A stretch of DNA of 64,000 bases from Gemmatimonadaceae bacterium. Its GTDB lineage: Bacteria > Gemmatimonadota > Gemmatimonadetes > Gemmatimonadales > Gemmatimonadaceae. Position 1 is the first letter of the stretch. Each line of letters opens with the position of its first letter. A program made the position numbers and the translations under genes. The DNA lies in contig JADLCY010000001.1 in the NCBI GenBank assembly GCA_020846935.1, positions 744,001-808,000 on the forward strand, written 5' to 3'. Below, one piece after another: positions 4,216-13,615 of this stretch. Below the pieces are notes generated by a model that saw only the letters and a program-made list of their open reading frames with translations, was not told the DNA's origin and did no database searches.

Positions 4216-5193
4216 TCACCCCGATGATGGCGGCGGGCCCGGAAGCACGTCAAGAGGACTGCGAACGCCCGGACCGCGATCGAGTACGTGCAGGTAAATC
4301 ATCGTCGTCGACACGTCGACATGGCCGAGCAGTTCCTGAACGGTGCGAATGTCGCAGCCGCTCCGCAACAACTGCGTGGCAAACGAGTGACGAAAGGTGT
4401 GCGCCGTGGCCCGGCGGTTGATCCCGGACGATCGCACCGCGCCCGAGATGGCGCGTTGCACGGTGGTCGCATGCAATGGATACCGCACCCTGCGTCGCAG
4501 CACCCTGTCATACACGTCCGCGCGCGCAGGGAAGAGCCAGCCCCAGCGCCAGTCCCGCACGGCGCCTGGGAGCTTCGCCGCCAATGCGTCCGGTAAGGGA
4601 TAGTACCCTCCCCCCTTCTGCAGCGCCCGCAGATGTCCGCCGCGCAACTCGGCGATCCGCGCGCCGAGTTGATCGAGGAGACGCTCTGGCAACATGGTAC
4701 GCCGATCCTTGTTGCCCTTTCCGGCGCGTACAACGATCGTGCGCCGCACGAGGTCGATGTCCTTGAGCCGCAACGACAGCGCCTCGTTCAGCCGCAGCCC
4801 GGACCCGTAGAGCAACGCCACCACGAGCTTCACCGGCTCGGTGAGCCGAGCAAGAACCAGGTCGACCTCGGGCGGCTCCAGGATGTTCGGCAGCCGATGG
4901 GCGTGCTTCGGGCGAACCACGCTCGGCAACCGCGCCAGTGGCCGACCCAGCACGTCCCGATACAGGAAGAGCAGCGCCGCGATGGCCTGCCCCTGTGTGC
5001 TGGCACTCAGCGGCCGCGCCCTGGTGAGCGCCTCGACAAACGCCTTGACCTCGACCTCGCCACACTCGGCAGGATGACGCAGTCCGCAGAAGCGCACGTA
5101 TCGAATGATCCAGCTCCGATACGTGCGCTCGGTGCGCAGACTGTAATGGCGCGTGCGAATCGCAGCGCGAACCTGTTCGAGCAGTCGTGGCAC
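4216..5193 (-). CDS. intI: Integron integrase IntI (tyrosine recombinase)
   Basis: A 325-residue tyrosine recombinase with all catalytic residues: R134 in YGSGLRLNEA, H265-x-x-R268 in AHTFRHSFATQLL, H291 in LLGHVDVSTTMIY and nucleophile Y300. What makes it an integron integrase and not a XerC/D or phage enzyme is the extra IntI-specific segment between the second and third boxes (residues ~194-222, GGGYYPLPDALAAKLPGA then WRWGWLFPA) and the C-terminal GVRSPLDVLP. IntI proteins recombine attI with folded single-stranded attC sites to insert or excise gene cassettes. Length is normal and the gene is intact. Likely cassette-type genes lie past its 3' end, not its 5' end, which implies the less common arrangement with the integrase in the same direction as the array. 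Confidence 0.93.
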   Translation of the reverse strand: MPRLLEQVRAAIRTRHYSLRTERTYRSWIIRYVRFCGLRHPAECGEVEVKAFVEALTRARPLSASTQGQAIAALLFLYRDVLGRPLARLPSVVRPKHAHRLPNILEPPEVDLVLARLTEPVKLVVALLYGSGLRLNEALSLRLKDIDLVRRTIVVRAGKGNKDRRTMLPERLLDQLGARIAELRGGHLRALQKGGGYYPLPDALAAKLPGAVRDWRWGWLFPARADVYDRVLRRRVRYPLHATTVQRAISGAVRSSGINRRATAHTFRHSFATQLLRSGCDIRTVQELLGHVDVSTTMIYLHVLDRGPGVRSPLDVLPGPPPSSG

Positions 5194-6832: not shown

Positions 6833-7468
6833 CTACCGCTCCCCGATCCTGAAGCCGAGCCCGGCGTAAAGCGCAAACGAGCCGTTCTTTGCCGACTCGC
6901 GCACGTTGCCGACATCAAAGTCGGCGATCTTCGAAACGCCAAAGCTGTAGCGAACGCCGGTCGTCAACAGGGCACCGCCAAGGTCGAAGCCAAGGCCCCC
7001 GCCAAAAGCACCACCGATGTCCACGGTCCGTGTGCTCACACCCGGCGCGTCGGCGCAGTCGGCATCGACGCCCTGGACCTTGCAGTCGATCTGAAAGCCG
7101 AGGTATGGACCAGCGTAGACAAACGGTACCATGCCGGCGCCCGTGTCGAGCGACAACCGAAACAGCAGCGGGACTTCCACATAGTTCAGCTTGAGCCCGT
7201 CGGGGCCGCTGTTGGTGCCCTTCGCCCCCTTGCTCACGAGCAACACCTCGGGTTGAAACGCCGTGATGCCGCTCGAGGGCAGAACGATCGACAGGCCACC
7301 GATCAACCCCGTACGCCGGTCGAGACCGTCGACACCCCGTAGCGTCGAAAAGGTCGCACCCGCGATCGCGCTCACCTGCGATTGCGCAAGCACGGCACCG
7401 AGCGCCGGCAGGGTGACCAGAACGGCTGCAGCAACCACGCGACCCAGCTGACCTGAACAACGCTTCAT
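6833..7468 (-). CDS. Outer-membrane beta-barrel protein (PorT-like)
   Basis: A 211-residue protein. The ATG at 7468 is chosen over upstream starts because a GAGGA stands five bases before it and a signal peptide follows (RCSGQLGRVVAAAVLVTLPA, ending VLAQ). The mature part opens VSAIAGATFSTLRG and ends LYAGLGFRIGER with a final aromatic/hydrophobic strand. Alternating strands such as NYVEVPLLFRLSLDTG and PFVYAGPYLGFQIDCK are the signature of the outer membrane beta-barrel family PF13568, for which PorT is the reference. Two extra cysteines (in IDCK and DADCADA) could form a disulphide in an outer loop. Function beyond the membrane location is unknown. Confidence 0.75.
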   Translation of the reverse strand: MKRCSGQLGRVVAAAVLVTLPALGAVLAQSQVSAIAGATFSTLRGVDGLDRRTGLIGGLSIVLPSSGITAFQPEVLLVSKGAKGTNSGPDGLKLNYVEVPLLFRLSLDTGAGMVPFVYAGPYLGFQIDCKVQGVDADCADAPGVSTRTVDIGGAFGGGLGFDLGGALLTTGVRYSFGVSKIADFDVGNVRESAKNGSFALYAGLGFRIGER

Positions 7469-7773: not shown

Positions 7774-8658
7774 TCACGCGACGTGACGCCGCGTGTCCGC
7801 TCCCGCCACCAGCGTGGGCAAGCTCCTGCCCAAGGCGGGCGCGAGCAGGGAGAGTTCCTGCATCATCGCGTCGAAGGCACCGAGTGTGAGGGATTGTGCG
7901 CCGTCGGACAACGCCGTCGCGGGCGACGGATGCACCTCGACGATGAGGCCGTCCGCGCCGGCGGCCATGGCTGCCCGGGCAAGAGCGCGCACATAATGCG
8001 CGTCGCCCGCCGCATGGCTCGGGTCGACGAACACAGGCAGGTGCGTCTCGCGCTTGAGGACGGGAATCGCGGCGATGTCGAGCGTGTTGCGGGTCGACGT
8101 TTCGAACGTGCGGATCCCGCGTTCACAAAGGATCACCTGCAGGTTGCCATGCACGGCGAGGTACTCCGCGGCGCCGAGCAGTTCCTTGATGGTCGCCGAG
8201 GATCCGCGCTTGAGCAGGACAGGCTTGCCCTGGGCAGCGATTGCGGCGAGCAACGGCACGTTCTGCATGTTGCGCGCTCCCACCTGGATCATGTCCGCGA
8301 TCGCCCCGATCCGATCGGCGTGACGCAGGTCCAGACACTCGGTCACGATCGCGAGCCCACACTCGGCACGCGCTTCAGCGAGCAGGTCCAGCGCCTCATC
8401 GCCCAAACCCTGGAAAGCATAAGGATTGGTCCTGGGCTTGAACGCCCCTCCGCGGAGGAGCACCGCACCTCCGCGGCGAACGCCGCGTGCGGTCTCCAGC
8501 AGCATGTCACGACCCTCCACCGAACAGGGGCCGGCCGCCACCACGAACTGGTGACCGCCCACGGTGAACGGCGCGACGGGGCCACGCGGATTGCCCACCT
8601 CGATGCGGGTGGAAAGCGGCCGGTCAGCGGCGCGGGCGACGAGCGGTGTGTCGGACAT
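7774..8658 (-). CDS. aroF: 3-deoxy-7-phosphoheptulonate (DAHP) synthase, type I-beta without regulatory domain
   Basis: A 294-residue enzyme that condenses phosphoenolpyruvate with erythrose 4-phosphate, the first step of the shikimate pathway to Phe, Tyr and Trp. Conserved blocks: AAGPCSVE (metal ligand C45), LRGGAFKPRTNPYAFQG, VGARNMQN, LLKRG, VFVDPSHAAG (H215), GLIVEVHPSPATALSDG (E241, D252). These four metal ligands match those of the Thermotoga type I-beta enzyme with a constant shift of about 57 residues, so the N-terminal ferredoxin-like domain that binds Tyr/Phe there is absent here. Expression appears to be controlled by an aromatic-amino-acid attenuator directly upstream (8680-8872). 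No other shikimate gene is nearby. Confidence 0.92.
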   Translation of the reverse strand: MSDTPLVARAADRPLSTRIEVGNPRGPVAPFTVGGHQFVVAAGPCSVEGRDMLLETARGVRRGGAVLLRGGAFKPRTNPYAFQGLGDEALDLLAEARAECGLAIVTECLDLRHADRIGAIADMIQVGARNMQNVPLLAAIAAQGKPVLLKRGSSATIKELLGAAEYLAVHGNLQVILCERGIRTFETSTRNTLDIAAIPVLKRETHLPVFVDPSHAAGDAHYVRALARAAMAAGADGLIVEVHPSPATALSDGAQSLTLGAFDAMMQELSLLAPALGRSLPTLVAGADTRRHVA

Positions 8659-8679
8659 GCGGGCGTTCCACGAGGAGGG

Positions 8680-8714
8680 AAAAGAAAACGGCCCCCGATC
8701 ATCTCGGGGGCCGT
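8680..8714 (-). terminator. Intrinsic terminator of the aroF attenuator
   Basis: On the minus strand an 11-bp perfect stem (ACGGCCCCCGA / TCGGGGGCCGT, at 8704-8714 and 8688-8698) with a 5-base loop is followed by TTTTCTTTT (8688-8680). It lies between the leader peptide stop (8746) and the aroF ATG (8658), the position of an attenuator terminator. It is one of few hairpins in the window with a real T-tract. Confidence 0.92.
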
Positions 8715-8816
8715 GGCGGCTGCGTTTTGAAGTCCTATCGGGGCCTCAAGACGTGCGCGTCCACCGCCCGCTGGTATACCAGTAGGCGCCGGCAAAGTAG
8801 AAGTTCTGGGCGGTGG
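8708..8816 (-). promoter_or_regulatory. Aromatic-amino-acid transcription attenuator (alternative RNA pairings)
   Basis: Reading the minus strand: region 1 CCACCGCCC (8816-8808) is a perfect 9-bp complement of region 2 GGGCGGTGG (8769-8761). Region 2 can instead pair, with one central mismatch, to region 3 CCACGGCCC (8716-8708), which overlaps the 5' arm of the terminator (regions 3:4). Region 1 lies just before the first Phe/Tyr codons, and region 2 lies just before the leader stop. A ribosome stalled on uncharged aromatic codons would cover region 1 and free region 2 to form the 2:3 antiterminator. A ribosome reaching the stop would cover region 2 and let the terminator form. This is the classic trp/phe attenuation logic; the pairings are seen, the mechanism is inferred. 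Confidence 0.85.
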
Positions 8817-8832
8817 CGGCGGACAAGCGCAT
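8746..8832 (-). CDS. aroF leader peptide, rich in Phe, Tyr and Trp
   Basis: A 28-codon frame (ATG at 8832, TGA at 8748-8746) that would be missed by usual length cut-offs. Residues 10-24 read NFYFAGAYWYTSGRW: two Phe, three Tyr and two Trp in 15 residues, grouped as Phe-Tyr-Phe, Tyr-Trp-Tyr and Trp. It sits between a strong promoter and the intrinsic terminator ahead of DAHP synthase, the shared first enzyme for exactly these three amino acids. There is no Shine-Dalgarno sequence. The predicted transcription start is only ~4-5 bases before the ATG, so the leader is probably translated from a nearly leaderless mRNA. A perfect CTGGTATACCAG palindrome spans the Tyr-Trp-Tyr codons. Confidence 0.88.
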   Translation of the reverse strand: MRLSAATAQNFYFAGAYWYTSGRWTRTS

Positions 8833-8842
8833 GAGGAGGGTG

Positions 8843-8872
8843 AGTGTAGGGGAACAGCCCTGGGGGCGTCAA
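8843..8872 (-). promoter_or_regulatory. aroF promoter
   Basis: On the minus strand TTGACG (8872-8867) and TACACT (8848-8843) are spaced by 18 bases, a good housekeeping-sigma promoter. Only ten bases separate the -10 box from the leader peptide ATG at 8832. No operator-like palindrome overlaps it, consistent with control after initiation. Confidence 0.75.
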
Positions 8873-10241: not shown

Positions 10242-12203
10242 TCAGCAGCTCCGGCACTTGTGCGAGTTCTTGCTCCCGAGCTTCTCGAGCAGGGCGACGG
10301 TCTCCACGAACGGAGGAATGCGCTGCACGGGGCCGTTGGCCATGTCGGCCACCGTCTGGCCGCGACGGCTCACGACGGTGATGTCGGCGCCCTTCGACAT
10401 CAGGTACTGAATCAGGTCGTCGTCACCCCGCGCCGCCGCGTGATGCAACGGGGTGAACCCGTTCAGGTCGCGCTGGTTCACGTCCATCTTGAGCTCCTCG
10501 ATGAGGAACTTCATCGCCGGAATCCACGCGTCGGGTGCGTGCCGGTGCGAGTTGGCGGCGAACCCTTCGCCGTAGCCAACACCCGACGCAGCGTGAACCG
10601 CGTAGACGCCGGGACCACCGGTCGGAATGGGCGGCAGGCCCGAAGGGTCCTTCGCGGCGCCGCCTTCTTCATCGGGCGACGAGTCGTCGTTCCGGATCCG
10701 GCCAGCCGGCTTGGACGTCGGGATGTTCGGGTCGGCACCGTGCGCGAGCAGGAGCTTCATCGCCGGGACGTCCAGCCCGTACGCCGCACGCCAGAACGGT
10801 GTAGCGCCCTGCGTGTTTACGCCGAGCAGGTCGAAGTTGTACGACATGTACCACAGGTGCTTCGTCAGGCGCACGTTCGGGTCGGCGCCCTTTGCGAGCA
10901 GCGCCTCCATGAGTTCGAGGTGCGTCGTCTGCTGCTGCGTTTGCGCGGTCGGCTGTGGGTACAGAGACTTGGCAGCCCACTGCACGTTGATCGTTGCGTA
11001 GAGCGGCGTAGCGCAGGCCTCGCTGGCGAGCCGAGGGTCCGCACCCTTGGCGAGCAGCTGCATGGCGATGTCGAAGTGGCCATTGATCGTGGCCATGAGG
11101 AGCGGGCTGGTGTGATCCCCGCCGCTCACATCATTGATCGGCGCACCAGCCGCGAGCAGCGCTTCGACGGCGGCGGTGTTCCCCTGCCGCACGGCAAACA
11201 GCAGCGGTGTGAGACCGCCCCGATTGCCGACCAGGTCGGCGTAGCCTAACGAACGCTCCTGCCCCGCCCGGGTGCGCGCGGAGTCCTGCTGCGTGTCACT
11301 GGCGGTGTTGGCCGGGCGCGGTTCGTTGTCGGTCGCCGGCCGCCGCGTGGCCGCCGAGTCGCGCACCGGCGACGCCGAGGAATCGCGACGCGCGGCCGTG
11401 GCCGGTGTCGCACTGCGTCGGCCGGTCGGCGACGCTCCGCTATCGGTTCGCGCCCGTGCCAGCTGGGCGGGCTGCGGGCCGGTCGTTCCGCCGGCACCGG
11501 CAGCGACCGCAGCACCGGCTGGACGTGGCGGTTGCTCAGCCGCCTTCAGCGCCGCAACGCGCCGCTGGCGCAACTGATTCGAGGCGCGATCGGCCCGATC
11601 CCGGGCCGGCGTGTCTTCGATCTTCGACATCGCCTTCAGGCTCGCCCCGGACTTCACCAGCAACGTGATGACGGCAACCCGATTGTAGTTGGCCGCCCAC
11701 ATCAAAGGTGTCTGCTCCCAGGCGCCGTCCTTCTGGTCGACGCTCGCGCCGGCCTTGAGCAATGCGGCGACCGCCTCCTCGCTGCCCTGCATCGCGGCCA
11801 GGTGCAGCGGACGCGCCCCACCAGCCGTCGTGGCGGCGTTCACGTTGGCGCCGGCCTCGATGAGCGCACTCACCGTCGCTCCACGACCCGCGCGCGCCGC
11901 CAGATGCAACGGCGTGTAGCTCCCGTTGCGGGTCGTTGCTTCCACGCGCGCCCCGGCCACCACCAGCATGCGCGTCGTCGCCACATCCCCCATCGCCGCC
12001 GCCCAATGCAGCGCGGTCATGCCGTCGCTCTGCGCGGCGTTTACGTCGGCGCCCTGCCTGATGAGCAGTCTCACCTTCGCGGTGTCCCGCTTCATGGCGG
12101 CATCGGCCACCGGCGACTCATCGCTCGGCGCCGCGGCTGCAGCAAGCAGGACGACGGCAAGCGCCATCAGGGGGTACACGCGTCGCAGCATGGGCGCTCT
12201 CAC
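10242..12203 (-). CDS. Exported ankyrin-repeat protein
   Basis: A 653-residue protein; the GTG at 12203 overlaps the upstream stop (GTGA), and an ATG at residue 5 is an alternative. A signal peptide (PLMALAVVLLAAAAAP) is followed by about five ankyrin repeats (residues ~30-210, e.g. DGMTALHWAAAMGDVATTRM, TPLHLAARAGRGATVSALIEAGANVN). A ~110-residue low-complexity linker rich in Ala, Arg, Ser and Thr (~220-330) follows, then four or more further repeats (~340-640). It ends NSHKCRSC, two cysteines that might bind metal or haem. It is the third gene of an operon with DUF1592-type and DUF1552 proteins and probably scaffolds them outside the cytoplasm; that role is inference. Confidence 0.85.
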   Translation of the reverse strand: MRAPMLRRVYPLMALAVVLLAAAAAPSDESPVADAAMKRDTAKVRLLIRQGADVNAAQSDGMTALHWAAAMGDVATTRMLVVAGARVEATTRNGSYTPLHLAARAGRGATVSALIEAGANVNAATTAGGARPLHLAAMQGSEEAVAALLKAGASVDQKDGAWEQTPLMWAANYNRVAVITLLVKSGASLKAMSKIEDTPARDRADRASNQLRQRRVAALKAAEQPPRPAGAAVAAGAGGTTGPQPAQLARARTDSGASPTGRRSATPATAARRDSSASPVRDSAATRRPATDNEPRPANTASDTQQDSARTRAGQERSLGYADLVGNRGGLTPLLFAVRQGNTAAVEALLAAGAPINDVSGGDHTSPLLMATINGHFDIAMQLLAKGADPRLASEACATPLYATINVQWAAKSLYPQPTAQTQQQTTHLELMEALLAKGADPNVRLTKHLWYMSYNFDLLGVNTQGATPFWRAAYGLDVPAMKLLLAHGADPNIPTSKPAGRIRNDDSSPDEEGGAAKDPSGLPPIPTGGPGVYAVHAASGVGYGEGFAANSHRHAPDAWIPAMKFLIEELKMDVNQRDLNGFTPLHHAAARGDDDLIQYLMSKGADITVVSRRGQTVADMANGPVQRIPPFVETVALLEKLGSKNSHKCRSC

Positions 12204-13615
12204 TGGCCGGGATCCGTGCGCGTCGCGTCAGACGCGCGGAGCGACAGCGCGCTCGTGCTGTCTCCGAAGGCCTTCGTGTCGTCCATGCCGAGCGAATGCA
12301 TCACGCTGAGCATGGCGTTGGCCATCGGCGTGTCGTTCGCTGCCTTGATGTGGACATTGCCGTCGAGTCGGCCGTTCGCCTTGCCCATGACGATCAGCGG
12401 GCATCGACGATGGTTGTGCAGGTTCGAATCGCCCATCGGTGAGCCGTACATGATGAGCGTCTTCTCCAGCATGTTGGCGTCGCCTTCCTGGATGCCCTTC
12501 AGCTTGTCCAGGAAGTACGGCAGCATCGCCACGTGGTATTTGTTGATGAGGTTGAAATCCTTGACGTTCTTCTCCGTGCCGCCGTGGTGCGACGCTGGAT
12601 GGAACGGCTTGTCGGTCCCGCTCTCCGGGTACGTCCGGCTGGAGCCATCGCGCCCCATCTTGAACGAAAAGACGCGCGTGATGTCGGCGGCGAAGGCAAG
12701 CGCCTGGATGTCGAACATCAGCTGCACGTGTTCGGCGAAGGAATCCGGGACACCCGCGGGGGCCCCCGGGAGGTCACGCGGCTCGCCCGACGCGTTGCGG
12801 GCCTCGGTGCGCGCAATCCGTCGCTCGACTTCCCGGATGTCCTCGAGGTACTTGTCCATCCGGGAGCGGTCCTCGGCGCCGAGCGTCTTCTTGAGCGACG
12901 TCAGCTCACCAGCGACAAAATCGAGGATGCTGCGGCGCGTTTGTCGGCGCGACGAGCGCTCCGCCGCGGACCCTCCGACGCCGAACAGCTTCTCGAAGGC
13001 GACCCGCGGATCGCGGATGACCGGGAGCGGCTCGGTCGGCGACGCCCAGCTGATGGAGTCGGTGTAGACGCAGGCATAGCCGTAGGCGCAGCCACCCGCC
13101 TGGTCCACCGGTTCGATGCAGAGCTGCAGCGACGGAATCGGCGTCTCCTGGCCGAATCGCTGTGCATACATCTGATCGAGCGACGTACCGACCCGCACGT
13201 CGGAGCCCTCGGTCTGCCGCGGATGCGACTGCGTGAGGTAGACCGCACTCGACCGGAAGTGATCGCCGCCGATCTCCTTGGGCGTGATAGGCTCGGCGCC
13301 ACGCACGTCCGTGTTGGAGACGATGGTCAGGTACTCCCGGTATGGTTCGAGCGAGCTGAGCGCGGTGGGCGCCAGATCGAAGCTCCGCCCCGCGGCCGCA
13401 GGCGACCACAGATTGAGCTTGGCGCCAAGCTCATTGCAGCCGGCCGCGCCGTGCACCATTTCGATGGCGACGAGTCGCGTGCGATCCGTCGCCGCCTTGC
13501 CCAGGCCACTGCGGCCCACCGGCACCATCGCGTCGAGGAACGGCAGCGCCACCGTGGCGCCCATGCCCTTCACGAACCTGCGACGGGGAAGCGGCTTTCC
13601 AATCAGGAATTGCAT
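12200..13615 (-). CDS. DUF1552 family Tat-exported protein
   Basis: A 471-residue protein starting at the ATG at 13615. The N-terminus carries a twin-arginine signal (PRRRFVKGMGATVALPFLDA). The rest fits DUF1552 (PF07586) along its length: RLVAIEMVHGAAGCNELGA, SLDQMYAQRFG, LQLCIEPVDQAGGCAYGYAC, SMDKYLEDIREVERRI-like helix, and HPASHHGGTEKNVKDFNLIN. The family is almost always encoded next to a DUF1592/DUF1588 cytochrome-like protein, as here, in Planctomycetota, Acidobacteriota, Myxococcota and Gemmatimonadota; the substrate is unknown and an oxidoreductase role is suspected. Its stop overlaps the ankyrin gene start. Confidence 0.85.
   Translation of the reverse strand: MQFLIGKPLPRRRFVKGMGATVALPFLDAMVPVGRSGLGKAATDRTRLVAIEMVHGAAGCNELGAKLNLWSPAAAGRSFDLAPTALSSLEPYREYLTIVSNTDVRGAEPITPKEIGGDHFRSSAVYLTQSHPRQTEGSDVRVGTSLDQMYAQRFGQETPIPSLQLCIEPVDQAGGCAYGYACVYTDSISWASPTEPLPVIRDPRVAFEKLFGVGGSAAERSSRRQTRRSILDFVAGELTSLKKTLGAEDRSRMDKYLEDIREVERRIARTEARNASGEPRDLPGAPAGVPDSFAEHVQLMFDIQALAFAADITRVFSFKMGRDGSSRTYPESGTDKPFHPASHHGGTEKNVKDFNLINKYHVAMLPYFLDKLKGIQEGDANMLEKTLIMYGSPMGDSNLHNHRRCPLIVMGKANGRLDGNVHIKAANDTPMANAMLSVMHSLGMDDTKAFGDSTSALSLRASDATRTDPGQ

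Follow-up and report, generated by a model that had tools for sequence, protein, structure and literature searches.

A Predicted Ribosome-Mediated Attenuator of aroF in Gemmatimonadota, With Counterparts in Two Other Phyla

Introduction

Classical attenuation has been studied mostly in Proteobacteria and Actinobacteria. The window analyzed here is a 64,000-nt stretch of a Gemmatimonadaceae genome (G000) whose nearest named relative is Gemmatimonadaceae bacterium ES-bin-29. On its minus strand a short open reading frame (ORF) rich in aromatic codons and a set of potential hairpins precede aroF, encoding DAHP synthase. This arrangement raises the questions of whether aroF is controlled by transcription attenuation and, if so, which amino acids the leader would sense.

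Results

Anatomy of the aroF Leader

A preliminary description of the locus had proposed, in order, a promoter, a leader peptide, three alternative pairings, a terminator and aroF. Every one of these elements was found on the minus strand with the pairings exact (Table 1); the observation was correct base for base, and chance is excluded. The 1:2, 2:3, and 3:4 pairings of the window are mutually exclusive, and the last is an intrinsic terminator situated between the leader ORF and the structural gene. Among the codons put forward as control codons, F11 Y12 F13 and Y17 W18 Y19 stand, while W24 (8763-8761) does not, because it sits inside segment 2 and a ribosome stalled there would cover that segment. 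The AroF protein matched TIGR01361 and PF00793 in a profile search and consists of the catalytic domain only, without the ferredoxin-like regulatory domain PF18152.

Table 1. Positions of the elements of the aroF leader in the window and of a second attenuator in the same genome.
Feature	Coordinates	Strand	Details
Promoter, sigma-70-type	8843..8872	-	TTGACG-18-TACACT; sequence scan
-35 and -10 elements	-35, 8872-8867; -10, 8848-8843	-	TTGACG and TACACT, 18-nt spacer between
Leader peptide ORF	8746..8832	-	MRLSAATAQNFYFAGAYWYTSGRWTRTS then stop; ATG at 8832, TGA at 8746; 28 codons plus stop
Control-codon cluster	8776..8802	-	F11 Y12 F13 A G A Y17 W18 Y19
Segment 1	8808..8816	-	CCACCGCCC; pairs with segment 2
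Segment 1, alternative register	8824-8815	-	GTCCGCCGCC; minimum-free-energy fold
Segment 2 (5' strand of antiterminator)	8761..8769	-	GGGCGGTGG; within leader codons 22-24
Segment 3	8708..8716	-	CCACGGCCC; common to antiterminator (2:3) and terminator (3:4)
1:2 pairing	8816-8808 with 8769-8761	-	9/9 bp
2:3 pairing	8769-8761 with 8716-8708	-	8/9
Intrinsic terminator hairpin (3:4 pairing)	8688..8714	-	ACGGCCCCCGA-GATGA-TCGGGGGCCGT; 11 bp, loop GATGA
T-rich tail	8678..8687	-	TTTCTTTTCC; directly 3' of terminator hairpin
aroF, type I-beta DAHP synthase	7774..8658	-	294 aa; ATG at 8658
Second attenuator	L201:669-788 (G000:C4, about 95668-95787)		Leaderless-type promoter; Phe-only leader MNAAARRAFFFSFSLPHPGENGGA

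The window transcript 8684-8832 folded with z = -4.8, and none of 200 shuffles was equally stable (z-scores and E-values here come from simple models, and related sequences are not independent of one another). Folding of the leader RNA, which the preliminary description had also proposed, gave the 1:2 pairing plus the terminator for the full window transcript. Between positions 7000 and 10000 one promoter was seen, compared with 0.3 in shuffles.

Conservation of the Leader in Related Genomes

A joint detector was run over the regions that precede DAHP synthase genes in the family and order of the window genome. It called a small ORF with at least five F/Y/W per 10 codons and then a terminator. 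Matches were obtained in 46 of 113 related upstream regions, in none of 333 dinucleotide shuffles and in none of 111 reverse complements. After limits were relaxed and candidates inspected by hand, the architecture was seen to precede 77 DAHP synthase genes within that order. In these homologous leaders aromatic density was 21.7% in frame versus 4.1 and 5.9% off frame. The first base (T) of their aromatic codons is kept and the second and third vary; hence it is the aromatic class, not a specific residue, that is conserved. As had been expected of an attenuator, relatives keep an F/Y/W-rich leader together with the 2:3 and 3:4 pairings despite sequence divergence.

The Antiterminator and the Position of the Stalled Ribosome

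The best duplex of segment 2 invades the 5' arm of the terminator in all 77 leaders (mean z of -2.48 vs shuffles). For the window sequence taken by itself the 2:3 pairing gave z = -1.2, and the case for this pairing is made by the family, not by the window alone. When segments were swapped among 20 members with diverged terminators, members' own 2:3 pairing reached -20.9 kcal/mol versus -17.2 kcal/mol for the swapped one, a difference matched by none of 5000 permutations. Lineages with terminator arm GAGCTCCCGA have segment 2 CCGGGAGCT, those with arm GGCCCGTG have CACGGGCC, and those with arm GCCCTGGGGA have CCCCAGGG. In an alignment of 40 leaders, the 2:3 pairing could be made in 93.4% of cells and the 3:4 pairing in 99.4%. 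The two pairings show compensatory changes on both sides, with a covariation reached by none of 500 shuffles, and both collapse when the alignment is slid by one column. The antiterminator, mutually exclusive with the terminator, is thus conserved with covariation, and its short core ACGGGCC is under stronger constraint than anything but the aromatic codons. A family-wide 1:2 pairing is weakly suggested (mean z of -1.2; swap p of 0.015 on 20 representatives).

Segment 2 starts a median of 12 nt (quartiles 11-13) past the first nucleotide of the last clustered aromatic codon, and the start of the antiterminator falls 9-16 nt past that codon in 83% of cases versus 15% of shuffles. In the window it begins 12 nt past the first nucleotide of W18 (8781) and 9 nt past that of Y19 (8778). 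This placement of control codons, in the homologous leaders as in those of two other phyla, fits a stalled ribosome that leaves segment 2 free. Folding of the window transcript from beyond such a ribosome to the terminator loop (without segment 4) yielded the antiterminator, at -32 kcal/mol.

A Probably Leaderless Start

The best promoter match has a -10 element ending 5-12 nt before the leader ATG in 54 of the 77 leaders (mode 6-7), while in shuffled upstream controls the best match lay 5-11 nt before the ATG in 11 of 385. Shine-Dalgarno-like motifs occur in four of the 77 leaders, and none was found before the leader ORF of the window. Given a -10 element so close to the start codon and the rarity of Shine-Dalgarno motifs, the leader peptide is probably translated from an mRNA that starts at or just before the start codon, i.e., a leaderless mRNA. 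The window has a gap of 10 nt between -10 and ATG, close to the upper limit of those seen in the family, and a 5' leader of a few nucleotides is therefore possible there.

Codon Content and the Regulatory Domain

The 77 leaders contain 259 Tyr, 134 Phe, and 41 Trp codons. All three amino acids are present in 27 of them, and Trp occurs within the aromatic cluster of 24. The absence of PF18152 was called by motif search, with Pfam confirmation on representatives. Trp was in the cluster for 13 of 18 enzymes without this domain versus 11 of 59 others (Fisher p of 5e-5, with kinship ignored). The nearest relatives of the window locus (L002 and L111) have an enzyme without the regulatory domain and a W in the cluster. 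The proposal that the leader senses all three aromatic amino acids is thus well placed for the window and its nearest relatives, while in the family at large Tyr and Phe codons make up most of the clusters. Trp codons appear optional in the family, yet W18 is well placed in the window leader. The allosteric domain usual in such enzymes is missing from the window AroF, and feedback on it may therefore be exerted mainly through attenuation.

Distribution and Phylogeny

In further orders and families of Gemmatimonadota the architecture was seen in 14 of 23 additional loci, one of the 14 without the promoter motif. In other phyla, 27 of 79 DAHP synthase loci matched, compared with none of 78 reverse complements. 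The arrangement shared across phyla consists of TTGAC...TAnnnT right before ATG or GTG, an aromatic run, and a terminator. All 27 belong to Planctomycetota or Opitutales-type Verrucomicrobiota, one of the former being recorded only as "bacterium." The Planctomycetota leaders are mostly from Phycisphaerae, e.g., MNERSFFFGYFWFDQTHTALGTE; an example from Opitutales-type Verrucomicrobiota is MNRFAAYFYFGFAGYFTPQTGGGLSQRKL. In these two phyla segment 2 lies mostly 15-17 nt past the last aromatic codon.

On a maximum-likelihood tree of DAHP synthases the leader label required seven changes versus 33 when shuffled. Leaders were confined to one side of the tree, where an automatic count found them in 69 of 86 rows; eight of the 17 other rows on that side have a leader and a hairpin with T residues that are fewer or displaced. 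The preliminary description had held that a gene kept in relatives whose leader was lost would speak against the attenuator. Such a case was seen in a clade of paralogues (leader in 0 of 24 rows) and in a sister copy, which occurs in genus-mates and in the window genome itself and clusters separately from the window gene. Genus-mates G001, G002, and G004 have only the type without a leader. A contig end truncates the only same-genus orthologue (G003, 88%, L003/L031) and leaves no upstream region to read; a DNA search for the missing stretch found nothing. The copy without a leader in the window genome (L174, G000:C14:134931-136979) lies directly behind the end of what we take to be a gene resembling pyruvate phosphate dikinase.

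In several relatives an aroF-pheA operon under the attenuator is suggested, because a prephenate dehydratase gene lies directly downstream of the leadered DAHP synthase gene on the same strand (L002/L221, L015/L203, L012/L204, L160/L209, and L137/L224). Separately, a small SRP RNA gene (RF00169) was observed near the leadered DAHP synthase gene of two relatives (L122:3513-3608 and L126:165-260).

Other Leaders in the Window Genome and Neighboring Genes

A search of the window genome for TTGAC followed by ATG and three F/Y codons returned five places (two in the control). Two of the five precede DAHP synthase genes: aroF of the window and a gene encoding a chorismate mutase-prephenate dehydratase-ACT-DAHP synthase fusion of 669 aa. 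The second attenuator (Table 1) has its own antiterminator and terminator, AAACCTCCCCGAGCGGGGAGGTTT-TTTTT. The codon mix fits the logic of the pathway, with a mixed leader on the common step and a Phe-only leader on a Phe-branch enzyme. Possible Trp leaders were also noted before trpE of the window genome (MLHTVETWRPGTSGDSRRHWRR; L202:532-600, G000:C8) and just before trpE of a genus-mate (MFRTFASWRRNTGDAWRPWR; L232). No T-rich terminator was found near either of these two trpE leaders, and regions upstream of trpE in the wider family yielded no convincing case of a Trp attenuator complete with terminator.

Elsewhere in the window, the minus-strand gene at 4216-5193 encodes an integron integrase (TIGR02249, 345.8 bits, over the cut-off), and a chromosomal integron may therefore lie nearby. 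A 653-aa ankyrin-repeat protein is encoded at 10242-12203 (minus strand), adjoining a 471-aa ORF (12200-13615) that had no NCBIfam match.

Discussion

The comparative evidence makes it very likely that a ribosome-mediated transcription attenuator of the trp/phe type controls aroF, and the aromatic pathway would then probably be switched on when ribosomes run short of Phe, Tyr or, in some species including that of the window, Trp. Transcription would begin at the leader ATG or a few nucleotides from it, and a ribosome would load at the 5' end of the RNA. With charged aromatic tRNAs ample, the ribosome would pass the cluster and cover segment 2, or the 1:2 pairing would re-form after its release; segment 2 being blocked, 3:4 would pair and transcription would terminate near 8680. 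With Phe, Tyr or Trp tRNA uncharged, the ribosome would stall at F11-F13 or Y17-Y19, and its downstream edge would leave segment 2 free (12 nt from W18). The 2:3 pairing would then form and dissolve the terminator, and aroF would be transcribed.

The alternative that survives best concerns the signal: the attenuator may be real but sense Phe and Tyr only, with the Trp codons incidental. We regard this as a serious possibility, though we lean against it. The clusters of the family are mainly Tyr and Phe, with W in just the 11 of 59 leaders noted above where the enzyme has a regulatory domain. Moreover, in the C. glutamicum system an FYF leader answers Phe and not Tyr (PMC11802643), so codon content is no predictor of response. 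Against a Phe/Tyr-only signal stand the frequency of W in clusters of enzymes without the regulatory domain, the nearest relatives included, and the position of W18, whose 12 nt to segment 2 is the stall distance most common in the family.

It is far less probable that the same hairpins serve a metabolite riboswitch, a T-box or a protein-bound antiterminator. Each of these could switch a terminator, but Rfam covariance models (Trp_leader, Phe_leader, T-box, and all other families) gave no relevant match in the window and 15 relatives, nothing reaching threshold save the unrelated SRP RNA; nor is there an aptamer-like conserved block, the top constraint being the core ACGGGCC. Similarly improbable is a leader peptide or attenuator RNA that acts mainly in trans in the manner of peTrpL/rnTrpL of S. 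meliloti, a system that exists and is also leaderless (PMC7298713). Here the peptide is conserved only as an aromatic class, and substitutions are about equal over all codon positions overall. Finally, an unregulated locus, in which a short ORF happens to lie before a constitutive terminator, would draw on the abundance of short ORFs and hairpins in GC-rich DNA but is refuted by the comparative data, given the silence of the joint detector on shuffles and reverse complements, an aromatic bias in one frame only and a covarying antiterminator.

Beyond the attenuator itself, we put forward more tentatively a broader view: that it reads Phe, Tyr and Trp as a class at the entry to the shikimate pathway, that feedback has moved to the leader RNA from DAHP synthases lacking the allosteric domain, and that the element, typically leaderless, is ancient or has evolved repeatedly over three phyla. 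Loss of the regulatory domain together with gain of Trp codons offers a testable idea of a trade between allosteric and RNA control. Classical attenuation probably governs the entry to the aromatic pathway in Gemmatimonadota, Phycisphaerae, and Opitutales, and about 115 natural variants with differing F/Y/W mixtures could be used to study the integration of several amino acid signals by a single leader. The leader ORFs are small and unannotated, and both gene callers and Rfam overlook them.

Relationship to Known Systems

The preliminary description had regarded such an attenuator as new to the phylum. A literature search found no paper on attenuation in Gemmatimonadota, nor in the other phyla concerned here, and the main text of a large premature-terminator survey names none of these phyla and no DAHP synthase. 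Attenuators of DAHP synthase genes are known elsewhere, and that of aroF is not the first of its sort, because C. glutamicum aroR-aroF and the Acholeplasma uORFC-13-1 motif precede it. The C. glutamicum element is reportedly that of Neshat and colleagues from 2014.

In E. coli, trpL and pheL (Rfam Trp_leader and Phe_leader) work by the same 1:2/2:3/3:4 logic, their cognate codons lying ahead of the antiterminator, but, unlike the aroF leader of the window, belong to branch genes and answer to one amino acid each. Attenuation of E. coli aroF itself was once hypothesized (Camakaris 1980, as cited in PMC8632094). Leaderless attenuator peptides have precedents in S. meliloti trpL (PMC7298713) and in Streptomyces (PMC8079986), where the leader ORF lies on a leaderless transcript as predicted here, though for other amino acids and genes other than aroF. 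The uORFC-13-1 motif, a short uORF with one or more Phe codons and an intrinsic terminator before aroF, is like the window leader and is predicted to act by attenuation; it differs in being restricted to Acholeplasma and environmental sequences, in having a ribosome binding site, and in its Phe-only content (PMC8632094).

A close counterpart is C. glutamicum aroR-aroF, where an F/Y leader and attenuator likewise stand directly upstream of the DAHP synthase gene, attenuation has been demonstrated for a leader reading Phe-Tyr-Phe, and stalling raises transcription (PMC11802643; PMC4046766). The likeness is one of function only. The actinobacterial leader responds to Phe and not Tyr, with no Trp codons reported in the text consulted, whereas the aromatic run of the window leader is longer and includes Trp, and its kind is spread over Gemmatimonadota, Planctomycetota, and Verrucomicrobiota. 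What would be new is thus a widespread DAHP synthase attenuator that combines predicted class-wide sensing of aromatic amino acids with a probably leaderless leader ORF, both of them less usual features.
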